A stretch of DNA of 51,657 nucleotides from positions 1 through 51,657 of IMG/VR virus record IMGVR_UViG_3300030331_000022; one strand, 5' to 3'. Below the pieces are notes generated by a model. That model made no database searches and was not told the origin of the DNA. It saw nothing but the letters and a program-made list of their open reading frames with translations. This document shows positions 6,673 to 38,045 of the stretch, in pieces (the stretch's first letter is position 1; each line of letters begins with the position of its first letter). Both the position numbers and the translations under genes were made by a program. This DNA comes from a virus.

Positions 6673-7746
6673 TTATGCTGCGTTATACTTGGCAGTGGTG
6701 ATAGCTTCTGGACGAAGAATCTTCCTACCATATAGATGCATACCACGAACAATGTCAGCAAAGCTGTCAGGGTCACGATATGTTTCTGTCTTATTAATCT
6801 GCTCTGCAGTTGCAACAGCAGAATCATGTCCAGCAACAATCACACCAAAATTTGAGTTTTGGTTAGCTGTTCCTGATGTTCCTGGACCTGTGCCTACGGC
6901 AGGAAGGTTTGAGGATACATACAAACGGAACCCGTGAAAGTTGTTGATTACAAGACCGTTACGTAGTCCACCTGACTCACCATAGTCTCCGTTCATAAAA
7001 CGGCTATCTTCGTCAGAAAGGATTTCCATAAACACTGGATCAATTACGAGCCAACGACCTTGTGTATCAACTTGTTGCTGATCAAGCAAACGTTTCATAC
7101 GTGCAATAATCATTGCAGGTGAAACAGTTGCAGTTGGAAGTGATGTGGCTCCAGGCATACGAGCAGTTACTGGAATCGAATGATCGCCAGCAGATGTCGT
7201 GGAGATGTTGCCAAAATCACCCTTCTTTAGTTTCATGCTTGAAAGCAGTTCATCATCACCTGCAGTCAAAACAGCTTTTTCACCACTTGCGGTGTCATTT
7301 GCTGTATCTGCCTTTGCATGTAATGCTGACTGTTTAAAGCCTGACATATAACCAAGAACTTCTTGGTCATACTGGTCAGCCAAACGATATGCTGCACGAT
7401 CTGTTGCCAGATCCATGAAGTTTACGTGACTGTGTGCCTCTTCGATGTCATCCATCTTAAAAGCAAAGTAGTTTGACTTGTCAACTACCAATGTGAAATC
7501 TTCATCGTCTAGGTCTTGTGCAGTGACAGTTGTGCCACGTGTATAAGCCTGAACGGAGATCTCAGGTTCTTTGATAATACGAACAGTATCACCTTGAGCA
7601 GAAATCTCCCCAAAGTAATCAGAGTTCGTAATATCCCCAACAGTAGCAGCCTTGCGAAAAGCAAGCTGAACCTGTTTGGAGTAGATTATAGGACTAAAAT
7701 TACCGTTAGGTAGGTTCCCATAACCCGATGCTGATGAAAAAGCCAT
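6673..7746 (-). CDS. Major capsid protein
   Basis: A 357-residue protein of the size and pattern of HK97-fold capsids of podoviruses. The N-terminal FSPIIYSKQVQLAFRKAATV, then QGDTVRIIKEPEISV, DDEDFTLVVDKSNYFAFKMDD, DQYDQEVLGYMSG and RWLVIDPVFMEILS are typical of the P-domain and spine of marine podovirus capsids. It lies between the scaffold gene (7993-8850) and small virion genes. An ideal ribosome-binding site AGGAGG (7755-7760) precedes ATG 7746, and a strong-looking promoter lies about 210 bases upstream, fitting the need for high expression. Confident as MCP on order, length and sequence feel. Confidence 0.9.
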   Translation of the reverse strand: MAFSSASGYGNLPNGNFSPIIYSKQVQLAFRKAATVGDITNSDYFGEISAQGDTVRIIKEPEISVQAYTRGTTVTAQDLDDEDFTLVVDKSNYFAFKMDDIEEAHSHVNFMDLATDRAAYRLADQYDQEVLGYMSGFKQSALHAKADTANDTASGEKAVLTAGDDELLSSMKLKKGDFGNISTTSAGDHSIPVTARMPGATSLPTATVSPAMIIARMKRLLDQQQVDTQGRWLVIDPVFMEILSDEDSRFMNGDYGESGGLRNGLVINNFHGFRLYVSSNLPAVGTGPGTSGTANQNSNFGVIVAGHDSAVATAEQINKTETYRDPDSFADIVRGMHLYGRKILRPEAITTAKYNAA

Positions 7747-21681: not shown

Positions 21682-21880
21682 CTGTCCAGCCTTCTGCCCT
21701 CATAGCCCACTCTACATGTTCCAAAGTAAATGGTCTACCATAGTGATTCTGTACAGCTTCACGTACATAGAATACATCACTATGAGGAATATGCAAATTT
21801 TCAATGTTATTATTTAGTACGTGTTTATAAAACTCGTCAAGAACATTGTCTGTGTATAGTTTTACTGATTTTTTAGGCAT
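21668..21880 (-). CDS. Small protein at the head of the leftward run
   Basis: 70 residues from ATG 21880 (MPKKSVKLYTDNVLDEFYKH); a TTG two codons upstream is also in frame. The rest contains DVFYVREAVQNHYGRPFTLE and HVEWAMRAEGW, a helical pattern resembling a small winged helix or phage conserved domain. It is the first leftward gene, facing the control region. No Shine-Dalgarno is obvious, and a candidate promoter lies almost on the start, so the mRNA may be nearly leaderless. Confidence 0.65.
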   Translation of the reverse strand: MPKKSVKLYTDNVLDEFYKHVLNNNIENLHIPHSDVFYVREAVQNHYGRPFTLEHVEWAMRAEGWTDVNT

Positions 21881-21892
21881 TGTCAATACTTA

Positions 21893-21921
21893 ATTATACA
21901 AAAAATACAAATTTATATCAC
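21893..21921 (-). promoter_or_regulatory. Weak candidate leftward promoter
   Basis: GTGATA (21921-21916) and TATAAT (21898-21893) lie 17 bases apart on the minus strand. A start would fall about 5 bases before ATG 21880, leaving almost no leader. The -35 is a poor match. Confidence 0.35.
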
Positions 21922-21941
21922 TTAACATACAGTTTAAGTGT

Positions 21942-22018
21942 TATCATTGTACGTGATTTAGTTAATGTATTTATAAAGTAAGTTAATGTAGCATTATAAA
22001 TGTATCATTGTACGTGAT
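21942..22018. repeat. Direct repeat pair TATCATTGTACGTGAT
   Basis: Identical 16-bp copies at 21942-21957 and 22003-22018, 61 bp apart (about six helical turns). Each contains a dyad ATCA-N7-TGAT and each is followed two bases later by AGTTAA. A third AGTTAATGTA lies between them at 21981. The even spacing suits cooperative binding of a regulator. Confidence 0.75.
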
Positions 22019-22109
22019 ACAGTTAAAGTGTAGGCCACCAAAAACTCTCTAGTATAGTTTTACACATTATAAGAACCTTGTCAATCCCTAAAATACATTT
22101 TACTACAAT

Positions 22110-22127
22110 ATTGTAACAATTGTAACA
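22110..22127. repeat. Tandem 9-bp repeat ATTGTAACA x2
   Basis: ATTGTAACA occurs twice head to tail (22110-22118, 22119-22127) and continues ATT. It lies 30 bases downstream of the -10 of the leftward promoter at 22157-22185, where an operator could act. Confidence 0.6.
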
Positions 22128-22156
22128 ATTTGTGATACACATTCTGTATGGAAACC

Positions 22157-22185
22157 ACTATATATGTAATGTGGTTAACAGTCAA
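22157..22185 (-). promoter_or_regulatory. Candidate leftward promoter
   Basis: TTGACT (22185-22180), 17-base spacer, TATAGT (22162-22157) on the minus strand. It would drive the leftward run starting at 21880 with a leader of about 270 bases that includes the 9-bp tandem repeat and both 16-bp direct repeats. Confidence 0.5.
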
Positions 22186-22471
22186 TTTTACTGATCTGTG
22201 TAGATGTACATACACATATAACGCCTACCCCCCGTATGGCCCCTGCCTACCTGCTGACGTGTGCTTACCTAGTCGCATATCAGGCATCATGCTTGCAGGT
22301 GAACAGGCATAATGCAGACACATCCACCACGCATGAGAAAACCTCAACAATTTCAATAGCATATCAACTACCGACAACTGTTATGCAATCAGTTGCCATG
22401 CAATAGCATGAAAAAAAGGCTAGGATTTTCAGCAAGATAGTGTGTTGCAATAGCCGATTACAAAATACCCT

Positions 22472-22608
22472 ACCCCCTATGGGGGTGGTGGCTGATTGAA
22501 CCGTCCAACATTGGACAGCTTGAAAGCCTCACGAGTTTCGTGCACGAACTGCGGTATCGAAGATACCTGTAGTCACACGGGAAACGGCACGGGCAGAGGA
22601 TCACGTGA
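22472..22608. repeat. Cluster of short perfect palindromes upstream of the early genes
   Basis: Successive dyads: ACCCCC-TAT-GGGGGT (22472-22486), GTCCAACATTGGAC (22503-22516), TTCGTGCACGAA (22537-22548), GGTATC-GAA-GATACC (22553-22567) and TCACGTGA (22601-22608). A further one, CAACTG-N9-CAGTTG, lies at 22375-22395. None is followed by a T run, so they are not simple terminators. Candidates are operators or origin-type cruciforms. Confidence 0.7.
22503..22516. promoter_or_regulatory. Palindrome GTCCAACATTGGAC, copy 1
   Basis: A perfect 14-bp palindrome in non-coding DNA 210 bases before the first early gene. It is one of a family GTCCAAYRTTGGAC found nearby at 23129, 23427 and 24585. Copies 1-3 share CC just before and copies 1 and 2 share AG after. 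A repressor or activator operator is the simplest reading. Confidence 0.7.
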
Positions 22609-22623
22609 AGCTGAAATCACCTA

Positions 22624-22713
22624 CTCTATCTCTCCATGTTACAGATAGTTTTCTATCTCTCCCTTTAGGGTGAGAGAGATATAAAACTCTCTTATGTAAC
22701 ATTAGAGATAGAG
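22624..22713 (+). promoter_or_regulatory. Long hairpin in the early leader
   Basis: Outer arms CTCTATCTCT (22624) and AGAGATAGAG (22704-22713) pair fully; then ATGTTACA (22636-22643) with TGTAACAT (22695-22702); then AGTTTTCTATCTCTC (22647-22661) with GAGAGATATAAAACT (22674-22688, one mismatch); the tip is CCCTTTAGGG. In RNA this gives one long stem with small internal loops, ending two bases before the AAAGGGG preceding ATG 22728. It may control translation, RNA stability or processing, or act in replication. Confidence 0.75.
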
Positions 22714-22727
22714 AAAGGGGCCACCAA

Positions 22728-23300
22728 ATGGCAAAATCAACAGCAAAACCACAAGTTGAAGGAACTTCAATCAATGCCGACATCAAAGAGGGCAAAGCCC
22801 TTGGGTCAATCTGGAGACAGACCAACAGTCTGAAACAGACCATCAAGGCCAATGGCTTCGACACACGGCTTGGAAAGCTGATGCAGAAGTTGAAAGCTGC
22901 ATCTTCGATGGATAATGGTCAAATATCCCGTCAAGTATTGACGACTCATGGCATCCATTGCATTGATCGTAGAAGACGATCTGAGGCTTTGTGGTTCGTT
23001 GAAAACGAAGTTGAGGTTCGTGAGTTTATTGCTAAAGCAAAATACAAAGGTTCCTCTCTTACAGCTTTACAAGCTGCAATGCGTAAAGCTGCCAAAGGCA
23101 GTGAAGATCAACCTGCTAAAGCAGAACCGTCCAATGTTGGACAGTCTGAACCTACCGAGCAGCCAAAGGCTGAACGTCCTAAGATCACCCACACTGTAAT
23201 GGTGAATACCATTCTGGCTCAGACCAAGCTCAACAACCTTGATCTTGAAAAGATCATTGAGGATCTTATGGCTGCTATTCCTGCAAAGGCAGCAGCATGA
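22728..23300 (+). CDS. First early gene, function unknown
   Basis: A 190-residue protein. The N-terminal 125 residues are basic and helical (LGKLMQKLKAASSMDNGQIS, GIHCIDRRRRSEALWFVENE), a linker rich in Ala/Glu/Pro follows, and a C-terminal helical segment (NTILAQTKLNNLDLEKIIED) could dimerise. A palindrome of the GTCCAAYRTTGGAC family lies in the linker coding sequence (23129-23142). No family recognised. Position directly after the structured leader suggests an early host-takeover or regulatory protein, which is inference. Confidence 0.75.
   Translation: MAKSTAKPQVEGTSINADIKEGKALGSIWRQTNSLKQTIKANGFDTRLGKLMQKLKAASSMDNGQISRQVLTTHGIHCIDRRRRSEALWFVENEVEVREFIAKAKYKGSSLTALQAAMRKAAKGSEDQPAKAEPSNVGQSEPTEQPKAERPKITHTVMVNTILAQTKLNNLDLEKIIEDLMAAIPAKAAA
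23129..23142. promoter_or_regulatory. Palindrome GTCCAATGTTGGAC, copy 2
   Basis: Perfect 14-bp palindrome within the linker-coding part of the first early gene (encodes part of EPSNVGQ). Preceded by AACC and followed by AG, as copy 1 is preceded by ACC and followed by AG. Confidence 0.65.
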
Positions 23301-23530
23301 TCCACCGTCACACACATCAAACCAGTGTTAGGTATCTTATACCTAGCACTAAACGTGACCTTGCACAGTGGCAGCTTGATGCTGCTACTGACCAATTCTA
23401 TGAATTGGCTACACAGGAAGCAAACCGTCCAATGTTGGACACTTTAAACGAAATCACCAGATCGCCTGAGGAAATGCGTAGACGATCACCTACATTAATC
23501 CATGACAGTGGATGGAAGGATGTAACATGA
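23297..23530 (+). CDS. Small early protein, function unknown
   Basis: A 77-residue protein overlapping the previous stop (ATGA). It contains TKRDLAQWQLDAATDQFYEL and NRPMLDTLNEITRSPEEMRR. Predicted mostly helical. The GTCCAATGTTGGAC palindrome at 23427-23440 lies inside it in a frame different from copy 2, so the repeat is not there for its protein meaning. Confidence 0.65.
   Translation: MIHRHTHQTSVRYLIPSTKRDLAQWQLDAATDQFYELATQEANRPMLDTLNEITRSPEEMRRRSPTLIHDSGWKDVT
23427..23440. promoter_or_regulatory. Palindrome GTCCAATGTTGGAC, copy 3
   Basis: Identical to copy 2 over 14 bases and the preceding AACC, but read in another frame (encodes part of RPMLDT). Confidence 0.65.
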
Positions 23531-23658
23531 CTAGACGTGAGATCAAACGTATGAACCGTAACCGAGCTATAGGCTGGTTCTTTTTAGGTGTAGGTTGGAC
23601 TGCCTTTGCCATCTTATTAGCCTCAATGCCGATGATTTACGAATTAATTGTCTTATAG
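23527..23658 (+). CDS. 43-residue single-pass membrane protein
   Basis: Starts at ATG 23527 overlapping the previous stop (ATGA) and ends TAG 23658. A basic head MTRREIKRMNRNRAIG is followed by a hydrophobic helix (WFFLGVGWTAFAILLASMPM) and a short tail YELIVL. Positive-inside rule puts the N-terminus in the cytoplasm. Possibly an early membrane-targeting host-takeover protein. Confidence 0.65.
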   Translation: MTRREIKRMNRNRAIGWFFLGVGWTAFAILLASMPMIYELIVL

Positions 23659-23697
23659 TTATATAACACTTGACTATTTATGAAAGTGTTATATAAC
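23658..23697 (+). promoter_or_regulatory. Promoter inside a perfect 14-bp inverted repeat
   Basis: GTTATATAACACTT (23658-23671) and AAGTGTTATATAAC (23684-23697) are perfect inverted repeats around a 12-base loop; each arm also holds the palindrome GTTATATAAC. The plus-strand promoter TTGACT (23670-23675), 16 bases, TATAAC (23692-23697) is laid across it, with its -10 in the right arm. A protein binding the arms would block the promoter of the 23728 gene; as RNA it would be a stable hairpin after the 43-residue gene. Confidence 0.6.
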
Positions 23698-23727
23698 ATA
23701 TATAGACATTAACAAAGGAACTTGTAT

Positions 23728-24414
23728 ATGACTTACCAAGTACATACCACAATCAAATCTAATAATCGTAAGGTTGGCAAGATACCTGTGACCACCACAA
23801 GTGCAGCTACCTGCCCTGATGCTTGCCCCTTCAACAATGCAAACGAAGGTGGCTGCTATGCAAATGGTGGGCCACTTGCTATGCATTGGGCCAAGGTAAC
23901 ACGTGGTGAACGTGGTGATGGTTGGCATACTTTTATTGCCAAGGTTACTACCTTCAAGGACGGCCAGTTGTGGCGTCACAATCAAGCAGGTGATCTGGCA
24001 GGTGATGGCAAACGTCTAGATGCCAAAGCAAACGAGCAGCTTGCTGATGCCAACACTGGCAAACGTGGCTTCACCTATACTCACTATCCTGTATTGACGG
24101 ACAAGCATAATGCAAAGGTAGTCAAACGGATGAATGAAAAAGGTTTTGTGGTCAATCTGTCAGCCAACAATGTTAAACATGCAGATGCATTATATGACTT
24201 AGGCATTGGGCCTGTAGCAACTGTGTTACCAGAAACACAAACCACCAATACCACTACACCTAAAGGTCGTAAGGTAATTGTTTGCCCTGCCACAGTCAAA
24301 GACGATGTGTCATGTGCAACATGTCAACTATGTGCTAGGAAACGTGATGCAATCATTGGCTTCCCTGCACATGGATCAAGTAAACGCAAAGCTGATAAGG
24401 TAGCAGCAGCATGA
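23728..24414 (+). CDS. Cys-rich early protein (CPxxCPF...LWRHNQAGDL family)
   Basis: 228 residues from ATG 23728, 8 bases after AAAGGA; an upstream TTG is unlikely. The N-terminus has TCPDACPFNNANEGGCYANG and GPLAMHWAKV; then GQLWRHNQAGDLAGDG, RGFTYTHYPVL, VNLSANNVKHADAL, VIVCPATVKDDVSCATC, QLC and a C-terminal FPAHGSSKRKA. I recognise this as a conserved uncharacterised family in phages, plasmids and actinobacterial or proteobacterial elements. At least seven cysteines in CPxxCP and CxxCxxC patterns suggest bound metal, perhaps an iron-sulfur cluster. It has its own promoter-like upstream repeat. Confidence 0.75.
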   Translation: MTYQVHTTIKSNNRKVGKIPVTTTSAATCPDACPFNNANEGGCYANGGPLAMHWAKVTRGERGDGWHTFIAKVTTFKDGQLWRHNQAGDLAGDGKRLDAKANEQLADANTGKRGFTYTHYPVLTDKHNAKVVKRMNEKGFVVNLSANNVKHADALYDLGIGPVATVLPETQTTNTTTPKGRKVIVCPATVKDDVSCATCQLCARKRDAIIGFPAHGSSKRKADKVAAA

Positions 24415-24566
24415 AACAAACTGTAACATATCGTAATCCTGTGGCTAAAGCCATGCTACAGGAACGCAAGTCGCCACAGGTCGTGCCACCCAAAAAGGGA
24501 GGTAAGGCTAAACGTAACCGCAAACAGGAGAAATACAATGCGATACGAGATGAAGAATTTCGTTAA
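24411..24566 (+). CDS. 51-residue basic protein
   Basis: ATG 24411 overlaps the previous stop (ATGA) and the frame ends TAA 24566. It encodes MKQTVTYRNPVAKAMLQERK, SPQVVPPKKGGKAKRNRKQE and an acidic end IRDEEFR. The pattern 'RNPVAKxM...PQVVPxKKGGKxKRNRK' looks like a small family known from phages as a conserved hypothetical. Overlaps the next gene by 29 bases. Confidence 0.65.
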   Translation: MKQTVTYRNPVAKAMLQERKSPQVVPPKKGGKAKRNRKQEKYNAIRDEEFR

Positions 24567-24681
24567 GTTTACTAAACGAAAAGTGTCCAATGTTGGACAA
24601 AAACCTAAACGTGATGATTGGAAACGTGAACGTAAGATCGCACGTCAAACTAAAATCAACCTTCGTAAATCAGTAGCATAA
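24538..24681 (+). CDS. 47-residue basic protein
   Basis: ATG 24538, with CAGGAG six bases before it, to TAA 24681. It encodes MRYEMKNFVKFTKRKVSNVG, then QKPKRDDWKRERKIARQTK. Copy 4 of the palindrome (24585-24598) lies inside, in the same frame as copy 2 (both give SNVG). Highly charged; nucleic-acid binding possible. Confidence 0.6.
   Translation: MRYEMKNFVKFTKRKVSNVGQKPKRDDWKRERKIARQTKINLRKSVA
24585..24598. promoter_or_regulatory. Palindrome GTCCAATGTTGGAC, copy 4
   Basis: This copy extends to a 16-bp palindrome TGTCCAATGTTGGACA (24584-24599). It lies about 100 bases before the HTH-like gene at 24696. Confidence 0.65.
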
Positions 24682-24695
24682 AAGGAGCTAATACA

Positions 24696-25034
24696 ATGAC
24701 AAACTCAAACGAATACGCACCCAGAGTAAAAGCAGCACATCCAGAATTGTATGCAGAGCATACGTTTCACATGAAGAAAGCTGTATCTTACACATACAAT
24801 TATAGTATAATTGATGAAGTGCTTCTTGAGTGTTGGGACGATATGACAATAGCAGAGATAGCACTAGCTACGAACGAATATCCTAATCGTATCAAGTATC
24901 GTGTGCAAGTTTTACAAACTCTTGGCATGATTAAGAACAAACTTAATATGGAACGTGCTGACCTAAAACGGCAACGTAAAGAGGCCGTTACATGGCTCAA
25001 AGATATTGACACTAAGCTGGCTAAGTGTTCGTAA
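24696..25034 (+). CDS. Putative winged-helix DNA-binding protein
   Basis: A 112-residue protein. Residues about 50-85 (DDMTIAEIALATNEYPNRIK followed by YRVQVLQTLGMIKNK) read as a helix-turn-helix with a wing-like end, and the C-terminus (ADLKRQRKEAVTWLKDIDTK) as a coiled-coil dimerisation helix. AAAGGAG precedes it by 8 bases. It is the clearest candidate transcription regulator in the early block and could be the protein that reads one of the repeated palindromes; that link is speculative. Confidence 0.6.
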   Translation: MTNSNEYAPRVKAAHPELYAEHTFHMKKAVSYTYNYSIIDEVLLECWDDMTIAEIALATNEYPNRIKYRVQVLQTLGMIKNKLNMERADLKRQRKEAVTWLKDIDTKLAKCS

Positions 25035-25198
25035 TTGTATCTGCACTTGTTGCGTACCTGTTGGTGCTCCTTACTGTTGGTAGTGGGTCATCAGCAGGTT
25101 TTAATATAAAACAAATAGACGCAATGGAACTATGGATAATTTACTTTCAAGTAATTACCATATTACAAATACTGCGTTATCTGAAAGGTAAAATGTAA
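25025..25198 (+). CDS. 57-residue two-pass membrane protein, GTG start
   Basis: GTG 25025 overlaps the end of the previous gene by 10 bases and the frame ends TAA 25198. Two membrane segments: FVIVSALVAYLLVLLTVG and LWIIYFQVITILQILRYL, joined by GSGSSAGFNIKQIDAME. The stop overlaps the next ATG (TAATG). Function unknown; holin-like size but in the early block. Confidence 0.6.
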   Translation: MFVIVSALVAYLLVLLTVGSGSSAGFNIKQIDAMELWIIYFQVITILQILRYLKGKM

Positions 25199-25362
25199 TG
25201 CATGGAATGAATATGAATAATGAGGTTTGTTGTATCGATTGCGGAGAAACAGGTTTAGTTTTTGAGGGTCAGAATGAATATGAACCTGATCCAGTTACAG
25301 GTGATCCGAGGTGTTTTGCCTGTGACATAAAAGCTAACCCAGAAAAATATAGGAATTTGTAA
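25198..25362 (+). CDS. 54-residue zinc-knuckle protein
   Basis: ATG 25198 overlaps the previous stop; frame ends TAA 25362, one base before the next ATG. It has EVCCIDCGETGLVF and, after an acidic stretch, PRCFACDIKAN, giving two CxxC knuckles that could bind one zinc. Small zinc ribbons are frequent in this genome. Confidence 0.65.
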   Translation: MHGMNMNNEVCCIDCGETGLVFEGQNEYEPDPVTGDPRCFACDIKANPEKYRNL

Positions 25363-25363
25363 A

Positions 25364-25735
25364 ATGAAAGTAGAGGTATACTTTAACCTACACAAACACT
25401 TGTTCTCTGTTCGTTCATGTAAAACAGGTAGGGTAATTGAACATACTACACATGTTCATTTGGACAGTCCTGTGTTTATAGTACGTCAATCAGGCCGTAA
25501 ACGTGTGTTACGTGAAGGTAAAAAGAATGTTCATGCTTTTGTAAGGGGCTATAGAAATCCTTATTTGGATTGGGCTTTACCTGACGGTTATCCTGTAGGA
25601 TATAACCCATACAAGTTTGATAGTTTTGTAAACAAACATACGCATGATCCTGTGCATTTTGCAAGTAAAGCAGCAATGCTTGTGTTGCCAAACAATAAAC
25701 CTGTAATAAGAGTAAAACAAGGAGTCGATATATGA
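25364..25735 (+). CDS. Conserved-looking early protein, function unknown
   Basis: A 123-residue basic protein. It starts MKVEVYFNLHKHLFSVRSCK and continues TGRVIEHTTHVHLDSPVFIV, RQSGRKRVLREGKKNVHAFV and GYNPYKFDSFVNKHT. Strong beta pattern with many His. I recall similar 'VEVYxNLHKxxxSVRxxKTGRVxxHxxxV' proteins in phages, without function. Confidence 0.7.
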   Translation: MKVEVYFNLHKHLFSVRSCKTGRVIEHTTHVHLDSPVFIVRQSGRKRVLREGKKNVHAFVRGYRNPYLDWALPDGYPVGYNPYKFDSFVNKHTHDPVHFASKAAMLVLPNNKPVIRVKQGVDI

Positions 25736-26810: not shown

Positions 26811-27656
26811 ATGCCATTTGATTTTACAAACTTTGAAGTACCAGAAAACTTAAACTTTCCTGTGGAGTTTGAACCCACTAAAGTAAGTGACAAAAAGTAT
26901 GTCATCAATGCCGACACTGGTAAATACCTTGGTATTGTCGGCAAAGGTTTTACGTGTGCATCACACGGTGATTTTTATCGTCGTGTCTACGACACAATCA
27001 CAGAGAACCTTTTGTCAACAGAGATTGAGAATGCACAGTTTACGTGGCGGTCTGCCCGTAACAATGCATGGTCTATGCTAGACATTACACTGCCCGACAT
27101 GCAGGTTGAGATTAGCACCGACAAGCATACAACTACGTTGGGTAATAGGATCATATCTTTGCATGGTATTGACGGTTCATGCAGCAATCAAGCATTCTTT
27201 GGTGCCATAGATTTCTTTTGCACCAATGGGCAGATATCTGGTGACTATGACAAGATCCGTAAGAAAAACACTTCCAACTTTACATTAGATGGTTTCATTC
27301 AGGAATTGCAACGTGCACGAACTGATTTCTACACAGAAACAGCCAAGATGCAAGTGTGGGCGCAAACTTCCACAAAGTATGTAAACATACAGTCTTTGCT
27401 TGAGGAGATGATATCCTCTAAACGTAAAGCAGAAAAAATGTTCAGCCTATACTGTGCAGAGGCAAGCACACGTGGTCACAATAAGTGGGCATTGTATTCT
27501 GCCTTTACCAACTACGCCAGCTATGCTGATGAACGTAACGGATTCAACTTGCGTAACACTGGCAACGACACACGTGCTATCAGCATGTTTAGCCGTGAGC
27601 AAGAGGTCAGCAAGTGGGTCAGTGACAGACGGTTCATAGAACTGGAAGCTGCTTAA
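26811..27656 (+). CDS. DUF932 (phage/plasmid-like) protein
   Basis: A 281-residue protein of the DUF932 family: YVINADTGKYLGIVGKGFTC, NNAWSMLDITLPD, LHGIDGSCSNQAFFGAIDFF, CTNGQISGDYDKIRKKN and NKWALYSAFTNYASYADERN. The family is common on plasmids and phages; function unknown, though it often sits with replication genes. AAAGGAG lies just before the ATG. The 83 bases upstream (26728-26810) hold no gene I can support. Confidence 0.85.
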   Translation: MPFDFTNFEVPENLNFPVEFEPTKVSDKKYVINADTGKYLGIVGKGFTCASHGDFYRRVYDTITENLLSTEIENAQFTWRSARNNAWSMLDITLPDMQVEISTDKHTTTLGNRIISLHGIDGSCSNQAFFGAIDFFCTNGQISGDYDKIRKKNTSNFTLDGFIQELQRARTDFYTETAKMQVWAQTSTKYVNIQSLLEEMISSKRKAEKMFSLYCAEASTRGHNKWALYSAFTNYASYADERNGFNLRNTGNDTRAISMFSREQEVSKWVSDRRFIELEAA

Positions 27657-37194: not shown

Positions 37195-38045
37195 TAAACC
37201 ATCCAGCCGAACTAAAGATACATCAGTATCTGGAGAACGCAGCCAATGGCAAGTCAGAGATATCTGATGAAACTATTGACCGTGTTTCTTCAGATATTGC
37301 TGATGCATTGAAACGACAGTTTGGCTCTGGTAATAAACGTGACAAGTTTAGGTTAAGGATGTCCAACATTGGTCGTCCTACTTGTCAGCTTTGGTTTGAT
37401 AAAAATAAACCTGATGAGGCATTGCCAAAGCCAACCACATTTGTAATGAACATGATGATAGGAGACATAGTTGAGGCAGTGTTTAAAGGTATTCTTAAAG
37501 AGGCTAAAGTAGACTTTAAAGATACTGATAAAGTTAGCCTTGCAGTGGGAGACACTGATGATACTTATGTTTCTGGGTCGTATGACCTTATAATGGACGA
37601 TGCAGTTGATGACATCAAGTCTGCATCTGATTATAGTTACAAACACAAGTTTGACTCATACGAGTCACTGGAAAAGAGTGATCCGTTTGGTTACATAAGT
37701 CAACTTGCAGGATATGCTCGTGCAGCAGGTAGAAAACTAGGTGGCTGGTGGGTAATAAACAAAGCAAGTGGACAGTTTAAATATGTCAAGGCAAAGACAG
37801 ATGTGCCTAGACAAATAAATAAAATAAGGAGGGTAGTAGAAACTATAAACCTGAATGACTTCAGGAGATGCTTTTCCCCTGTACCCGAAACGTTTAGGGG
37901 GAAAGCAACTGGTAACTATATACTTGACGATAGTTGTAGATTTTGCGATTATCGGTTTGCATGTTGGCCTAGCCTAAAAGAAATACCATCTCGTGTATCT
38001 CAAGCTAAAGTGCCACCAATTGTACAATACGTAGAAGAGGAATAA
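37191..38045 (+). CDS. Cas4/RecB-like PD-(D/E)XK exonuclease with Fe-S cluster
   Basis: A 284-residue protein with PD-(D/E)XK motifs: SGSYDLIMDD (D132), VDDIKSASDY (D141, K143) and YISQLAGYARA (Q171, Y175). Four cysteines, one at 65 (RPTCQLW) and three near the C-terminus in CRFCDYRFAC (249, 252, 258), are spaced as in the iron-sulfur domain of Cas4/AddB nucleases. It overlaps the SSB-like stop (ATGA). Likely a 5'-3' exonuclease for recombination or host-DNA breakdown, working with the SSB-like protein and the resolvase. Confidence 0.82.
   Translation: MINHPAELKIHQYLENAANGKSEISDETIDRVSSDIADALKRQFGSGNKRDKFRLRMSNIGRPTCQLWFDKNKPDEALPKPTTFVMNMMIGDIVEAVFKGILKEAKVDFKDTDKVSLAVGDTDDTYVSGSYDLIMDDAVDDIKSASDYSYKHKFDSYESLEKSDPFGYISQLAGYARAAGRKLGGWWVINKASGQFKYVKAKTDVPRQINKIRRVVETINLNDFRRCFSPVPETFRGKATGNYILDDSCRFCDYRFACWPSLKEIPSRVSQAKVPPIVQYVEEE
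37361..37374. promoter_or_regulatory. Near-copy of the early palindrome (GTCCAACATTGGTC)
   Basis: Matches copy 1 at 13 of 14 bases (one A-to-T change in the right arm). It lies 170 bases into the exonuclease gene. Could be chance. Confidence 0.35.

Follow-up and report, generated by a model that had tools for sequence, protein, structure and literature searches.

Palindromes and genes at the start of the early region

The window analysed here is a stretch of 51,657 bp of viral DNA (IMG/VR record IMGVR_UViG_3300030331_000022, positions 1 to 51,657), and four copies of a 14-bp palindrome lie at the start of its early genes. The leftward genes stop at about 21,890, the rightward early genes start with gp1 at 22,728, and an integrase gene follows at 27,656. 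The GC skew flips sign at about 22500, the start of the early operon, and tracks gene direction. The sites and the gene that concern us are listed below, together with one near-copy; ORF stands for open reading frame.

22503..22516: site 1, GTCCAACATTGGAC, non-coding, in the leader, 225 bp ahead of the gp1 start codon
22728..23300, plus strand: gp1, 190 aa, first early gene, proposed binder of the sites from covariation and an AlphaFold model
23129..23142: site 2, GTCCAATGTTGGAC, within gp1, reading SNVG in a variable linker predicted to be disordered
23427..23440: site 3, GTCCAATGTTGGAC, within ORF 23297-23530, reading PMLD
24585..24598: site 4, GTCCAATGTTGGAC, within the short basic ORF 24538-24681, reading SNVG
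37361..37374: near-copy with one mismatch, inside a conserved gene, probably outside the array

GTCCAAYRTTGGAC is found exactly at 22503, 23129, 23427 and 24585 and at no other place in the 51,657 bp. The four perfect copies named in a preliminary description of this DNA are therefore exact, and the comparison with chance gives four in the window against none in 100 dinucleotide shuffles of it. When one mismatch is allowed, only the word at 37361 is added, and five further matches have three mismatches. The copies lie, as had been described, in non-coding DNA (the leader) and in three genes (22728-23300, 23297-23530 and 24538-24681), and CC precedes copies 1-3. The statement that none of the copies is at a terminator can be kept only in part, since at copies 3 and 4 a consensus scan calls weak minus-strand hairpins that resemble terminators; these are produced by the A-rich bases before the sites.

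By its DNA polymerase, which is 76-79% identical to those of CRP-1 and CRP-345 and 65% identical to that of HMO-2011, the window is assigned to the HMO-2011-type marine phages. The roseophages CRP-1 and CRP-345 are its closest named relatives in the phage collection; of the 20 kb searched, 39% aligns with CRP-1 and 29% with CRP-345, at about 74% identity. This comparison group is treated in PMC9038755 and PMC6918029; the former describes the group as dominant and broadly distributed in the sea, and gives as its defining mark a DNA polymerase with a partial DnaJ domain containing two CXXCXGXG motifs. In A7, residues C293, C296, G298 and G300 as well as C318, C321 and G325 are invariant; with a consensus of CXXCDARG, the second motif is not letter-perfect. 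The integrase gene lies upstream of those for primase, helicase and polymerase, as is typical of the group, and an integrase is present in all 17 relatives' loci that reach the primase.

The preliminary description counted the word at 37361 as a fifth near-copy. The one-mismatch word exists, but it is probably a coding coincidence and not a member of the array, because in CRP-2 and CRP-603, two phages without an array in the 50 kb read, the counterpart of this gene also has a word with one mismatch at that position. In CRP-345 the position holds the exact word.

The array in related phages

An IMG/VR scan with one form of the word returned at least 119 stretches. Among the matches listed, 39 records (the window and two isolates included) hold at least three copies, and gp1 lies in the fetched stretch of 33 of these. 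The first three scans with the gp1 protein each yielded the best 80 of 177-200 relatives. Removal of near-duplicates by shared k-mers reduced the first protein set from 80 to 53 loci and the full set from 268 to 91. These 91 non-redundant genomes comprise the window, two isolates, 18 from the motif scan and 70 from the protein scans, and the protein scans supplied all 11 genomes of the GC class defined below. The query alignments came mostly from motif-found loci, which leaves the protein-found sets in part dependent on the motif.

All 53 non-redundant loci found with the gp1 protein carry a site of the general skeleton GTCC-RA-NN-TY-GGAC, 49 of them with GTCCAA..TTGGAC and four with GTCCGA..TCGGAC only. 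In the same 53 loci, GTCCAA..TTGGAC is absent from about 107 kb between -3000 and -500 of gp1. Over the 91 genomes, at least two sites are present in 88 and at least three in 85, at conserved places; one is present in L059, where the contig ends, and none in two. The leader position of site 1 is kept in 73 of the 91 (some contigs end short of the leader), and a site occupies the gp1-internal place of site 2 in 78. The site-less L331, with C112 and N116 in gp1, has other GTCC-N6-GGAC words at -152, +1026 and +4673.

The array spans from about -300 bp before gp1 to about +3.5 kb. In the larger set, 416 sites fall in the 310.9 kb within -450..+3500 and 11 in the 634.4 kb outside; all 11 outlying sites are downstream of gp1, with none upstream in the sequence examined. 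Five of the 11 are one and the same word, exact GTCCAAGGTTGGAC with a GG centre, which occurs 5.7-7.1 kb after the gp1 start in five genomes (CRP-1 at 6868, CRP-345 at 7079, L166, L167 and L194). It lies in the annotated integrase gene of CRP-1 and CRP-345, and these copies are probably protein-coded. Of 49 long loci, 48 contain a counterpart of the short basic ORF that bears the last site in the window; the CRP-1 annotation lists none at that place.

CRP-1, CRP-345 and HMO-2011 share the array and a gp1 homolog with the window. Read across the record ends, the sites of CRP-1/CRP-345 are at -238/-234, in gp1, near +1050 and at +2228/+2132. In HMO-2011, whose host lineage is SAR116, the homolog of gp1 is gp74, to which hhalign assigns a probability of 98% and E 1e-13; tblastn run directly at E 0.01 gave no match. 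AGTCCG-N4-CGGACT words are situated at 53878 (-290), 54807 (+640 by the GTCC), 60, 1261 and 1926 of HMO-2011, a layout that matches the array, and the word at 60 has its centre in the opposite orientation, reverse-complemented relative to the remaining four. The isolate comparison covered the first 50 kb of seven isolates, with CRP-212 and CRP-738 outside it; no such array is present in the first 50 kb of CRP-2, CRP-603, CRP-207, HTVC033P, CRP-235 or CRP-3.

The coding copies in the window use two reading frames across three ORFs, and copies 2 and 3 differ in frame (SNVG versus PMLD), as the preliminary description had noted. In relatives the peptide encoded by the site in gp1 is SNVG, or SDVG/SDIG in the GC class, and it lies within the most variable, predicted-disordered stretch of gp1. 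Five genomes (L018, L024, L036, L040 and L068) have a gp1 without the site-coded peptide and sites placed elsewhere. The position of SNVG in the most variable part of gp1 and the presence of the word in different genes and frames indicate that the DNA rather than the protein is kept at the sites.

Covariation of the sites with gp1

The sites were divided into two classes, AA (GTCCAA..TTGGAC) and GC (GTCCGA..TCGGAC), and each genome was classed by the majority of its sites; L045, with two of each, was scored as AA-class in the tree, pair and neighbour tests and as GC-class in the gp1 column test. Genomes in which the gp1 start is off the contig or gp1 is shorter than 150 aa were left out of the tree and residue tests, for which 87 rows were kept, 85 with sites. 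One genome, L171, was removed as a near-duplicate and restored by hand for the later tests. The p values of the residue tests carry no correction for how many columns were compared.

Eleven genomes show a joint switch of all or nearly all copies from the AA to the GC class. The GC class is scattered on the gp1 tree, its 11 rows requiring 10 changes when helix and linker columns are omitted from the tree; an earlier tree with 10 GC-class rows required nine. L171 and L182 are 92.6% identical over 8.6 kb, yet the inner bases differ at all five sites, being AACGTT in L182 and GACATC or GATGTC in L171. Mixed genomes have both AA and GC sites (1 and 4 in L269, 4 and 1 in L220, 5 and 1 in L150, 2 and 2 in L045), and L110 has four GA..TT sites.

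AlphaFold predicts gp1 to be all-helical, with a predicted local distance difference test (pLDDT) value of 77 for the full protein and, for the domain alone, a pLDDT of 86 and a predicted template modelling (pTM) score of 0.77. A helix-turn-helix is predicted at residues 94-122, formed by helices 94-104 and 111-122, the latter being the candidate recognition helix. When gp1 columns were compared with site class, residues 112, 116 and 119 tracked the class, as did residue 136, which is part of the site itself. Residues 112, 116 and 119 are positions 2, 6 and 9 of the second predicted helix, the classical major-groove positions of helix-turn-helix proteins.

Residue 112 is threonine in most AA-class genomes and serine in GC-class genomes (p 2e-10). 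The combination S112 with K116 is found in 11 of 11 GC-class genomes and in none of 74 others, and usually comes with loss of the basic residue at 119. All nine independent pairs change in the same direction, which gives p 0.004 in a sign test; the tree used for the pairs omits the helix and linker columns. Five genomes have S112 with R116; their 26 sites are of the AACGTT or GACGTT type, 24 with a CG centre. Among AA-class genomes with at least three sites, a basic residue at 116 goes with the CG centre (15/21 versus 5/51, Fisher 4e-7). The HMO-2011-like proteins (K112, K116) accompany G/C at positions 5/10 in nearly all sites.

Eight contigs obtained after this rule had been seen all agree with it. 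GATGTC is present at 3 of 4 sites in L398 and at 6 of 7 in L416 (both S112, K116), and in the six T112 contigs (L400, L415, L423, L425, L426 and L428) the left half of nearly every site has AA. Variants among the latter are CACATT, once in L400, and A at position 9 in 2 of 3 sites of L426 and 1 of 6 of L428. L415 and L425, with an identical helix and almost identical sites, may be closely related.

As a control, 12 neighbouring families were examined, of which 11 were testable; the integrase family had one GC-class member and was not judgeable, and several families had only 3 to 6. The only comparable residue is number 18 of the basic ORF 24538-24681 (6e-8), which is encoded by the site. The next best residue had p 0.00056, in a family with three GC-class members. 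Since S112 with K116 tracks site class while the neighbouring families have nothing comparable, gp1, a family without a database name, is very probably the protein that binds the palindromes.

The preliminary description had suggested another binder, the product of 24696-25034. This gene was found in 40 of 89 genomes, in both site classes, and has no tracking residue (best p 0.019, uncorrected), and its product is probably not the binder. It had looked a strong candidate as it is swapped for another ORF between L171 and L182, and failed over the 89 genomes and in the residue test.

The conserved places in relatives, the joint change of the copies and the covariation with a predicted helix-turn-helix together give good support to the palindrome as an operator-type DNA site for a phage factor, spread across the first early genes. 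In this respect the proposal of an operator or structural site for a phage or host factor is supported on the phage side; a host factor is unlikely because the data point to the product of 22728-23300.

Proposed mode of action and related systems

The array, its place and its covariation with gp1 are read from the sequences, and from them we infer direct binding by gp1 as a dimer, repression, roadblock and immunity. The reading we prefer, with a probability of about 60%, is that the palindromes are gp1 sites and that gp1 represses its own early operon by roadblock. A gp1 dimer would probably read two GTCC half-sites, and residues 112 and 116 (perhaps 119) of helix 111-122 would select the inner bases; the two C-terminal helices may dimerise in the predicted model. 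Window-type gp1 would bind GTCCAATGTTGGAC, and a gp1 with S112 and K116 would prefer GTCCGATGTCGGAC. Accumulating gp1 would block elongating RNA polymerase at several sites, and early transcription would fall. gp1 would regulate its own expression in the manner of Cro or an immunity repressor, with the sites as roadblock operators; its phages carry an integrase in every locus that allows a judgement, and repeated change of helix and sites would be expected from selection to escape superinfection immunity.

Action on its own operon is most likely because the sites are in the gp1 leader, in gp1, and then in the next genes at intervals of a few hundred bases or more. The position of the sites can be compared with one further element.

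22170..22209, plus strand: candidate early rightward promoter, conserved block TGTGGTTAACA..CTGATCTGTGTAG, a guess from conservation

A consensus promoter scan made no call at this block. Promoter occlusion does not fit, because no site overlaps the candidate promoter. The array starts before gp1 and runs only down the early operon, and roadblock fits best.

Several observations count against repression by gp1 or against the rule for its residues. The lack of overlap with the candidate promoter, itself a guess, is one. S112 alone occurs in five AA-majority or GA..TT genomes, and the link of residue 116 to the CG centre is only suggestive by independent pairs (p about 0.06). The mixed genomes are exceptions, in that L045 (T112, S116) has as many GC as AA sites, L220 and L150 (T112) have one GC site each, and L269 (S112, K116) retains one AA site. 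L244 has a T112 helix yet no site in 1.5 kb downstream. The central bases have an unexplained orientation bias relative to gp1 (TG 244 versus CA 63; GA..TT 11 versus AA..TC 1), and a bias of the same kind is seen in the HMO-2011-like set (GACAGC 23 versus GCTGTC 2). A sequence search of gp1 against the PDB gave no match at E 10, Foldseek with the gp1 model against the PDB nothing at E 0.001, and no Pfam family or structural match was convincing. In bacterial genomes, none of 13 pattern matches to gp1 was confirmed, so lysogeny of these phages is not supported there.

Against BFVD at E 0.001, Foldseek gave one match, S4S2E1 (E 1.9e-5); going only by length and style of accession, we take this to be gp74 of HMO-2011. 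In a second look (VIA), all structural matches of gp1 had Z below 5, and the fold may be missing from that set. One of 84 gp1 members matched an unnamed PHROG, phrog_7721 (E 9e-5).

The same binding could instead serve to organise or segregate phage DNA, in a ParB/parS-like or nucleoid-like manner and without repression, which we regard as unlikely. A cluster of palindromes around the binder's own gene resembles parS arrays, and the full gp1 model matched ParB DNA-binding domains (4umk, Z 3.9, root mean square deviation 4.8, 92 aligned; 6s6h, Z 3.2). However, such Z values are background for helical models, and the domain alone leaves only 5k5d, at Z 2.0. No ParB family is among the 25 of 30 Pfam matches listed for the 84 gp1 members (E 0.1), and with integrase genes in 17 of 17 loci there is less need for a segregation system.

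Activation of the early genes by gp1, or recruitment of RNA polymerase to them, is more doubtful still. Sites do precede several early genes, for example in L110, and are intergenic in HMO-2011, but three of the four window sites are inside ORFs and no plus-strand promoter-like pair is called beside the sites.

It is improbable that the word acts in the early mRNA, folded into a hairpin (GUCCA-NNNN-UGGAC) to which gp1 or some other factor would bind. The change from A-T to G-C at positions 5/10 would retain the pair, the excess of GA..TT over AA..TC is what G-U pairing would permit, and the centre is orientation-biased. Among the 12 single-mismatch variants in 311 kb, however, there are no wobble-compatible arm changes and one of the mirror type, and rare centres occur in both orientations (4 versus 1 in HMO-2011; three GG and two CC in L040). 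The covarying residues, moreover, sit where helix-turn-helix proteins read DNA.

Least probable of all is that a different protein, from phage or host, binds the sites and that gp1 residues 112 and 116 co-change by linkage only: gp1 holds a site some 60-70 bp from the helix codons, gene conversion could link both and the comparison covered about 12 kb around gp1 in most relatives, but sites up to 2.5-3 kb off change too, nine of nine independent changes hit the same residues, L171 and L182 are otherwise nearly identical, and other neighbours do not track class.

Besides the sites and the candidate promoter, an alignment of 20 relatives shows conserved blocks in the gp1 leader (21890-22727), and one further gene lies directly after the array.

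About 22084-22055, minus strand: leftward promoter-like TTGACA/TAAAAC pair, from leader conservation
22375-22396: CAACTG..CAGTTG, conserved block
22472-22486: hairpin, conserved block
22530-22605: structured-looking element, conserved block
22621-22716: long hairpin, conserved block
24696..25034, plus strand: helix-turn-helix-like protein, 112 aa, the unsupported earlier candidate binder

An Rfam scan of 21800-25200 gave no family at the gathering score. The slot after the last site is replaceable, holding either the 112-aa helix-turn-helix-like protein or an unrelated 76-aa ORF (L171 and L182 after +2500). Beside the array, 25364-25735 encodes a protein related to mycobacteriophage L5 gp82 (Pfam PF25735, E 1.1e-29). 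A tRNA search of the window found none. A scan of bacterial genomes with the polymerase gave 12 loci, eight of them matching at 55-66% on 8 to 63 kb contigs of metagenome-assembled genomes. These contigs with HMO-2011-type polymerase (L433-L440) sit in assemblies labelled as unrelated bacteria and an archaeon, and are probably binning contamination.

The roadblock reading offers a testable function for the gene that opens the early region in this abundant group of marine phages. The odds slightly favour the broader view that gp1 stands for a new family of phage regulators that read palindromes, that their specificity was recoded about ten times by the same few helix changes, each time with the sites following, and that the group holds a record of operator-repressor coevolution and immunity groups. 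The relatives provide a natural series of repeated origins of one and the same change in protein-DNA specificity, with mixed genomes and GA..TT sites as intermediates, and how a repressor and many operators change together becomes a directly testable question. Should gp1 determine immunity, phages that exclude one another could be predicted from metagenomic data by their site class. A literature search for forms of the palindrome word gave only an unrelated match. In the HMO-2011-type papers PMC9038755, PMC6918029 and PMC8528129, neither palindromes nor promoters are mentioned, nor repressors in PMC8528129.

The closest likeness is to the stoperators of Cluster A mycobacteriophages, for which PMC6550527 and PMC9283540 describe repressor sites, co-change of repressor and sites, and repeated specificity change with superinfection exclusion. 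As there, many copies of one short site run through phage genes, site and protein change together, and there is an orientation bias. Stoperators are asymmetric, monomer-bound and genome-wide, whereas the gp1 sites are 14-bp palindromes within about 4 kb of gp1, and only their central bases are orientation-biased. The stoperator repressor stops transcription elongation, as gp1 would under the roadblock reading. The gp1 family is unnamed, with no Pfam or PDB sequence relative and one unnamed PHROG match, and the searches made showed no relation to the Cluster A repressors.

The conserved inverted repeats of Streptomyces phage phiC31 are dispersed palindromic repressor sites. A literature search on these repeats found no paper. 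The gp1 sites differ in being confined to one operon. In ParB/parS systems, short palindromes cluster near the binder's gene, as in the gp1 array; ParB has a cytidine triphosphate (CTP)-binding N-terminal domain, and no ParB is among the Pfam families listed for gp1. KorB of plasmid RK2, according to PMC11790492, acts via OB operators on transcription away from promoters. gp1, as proposed here, would likewise be a site-specific protein acting away from promoters, but KorB is a CTP clamp of the ParB family and gp1 lacks such a domain in the Pfam scan. Dispersed repressor sites are an already known kind; what is new is the family to which gp1 belongs, the layout of palindromes within one operon, and the recoding recorded again and again among the relatives.

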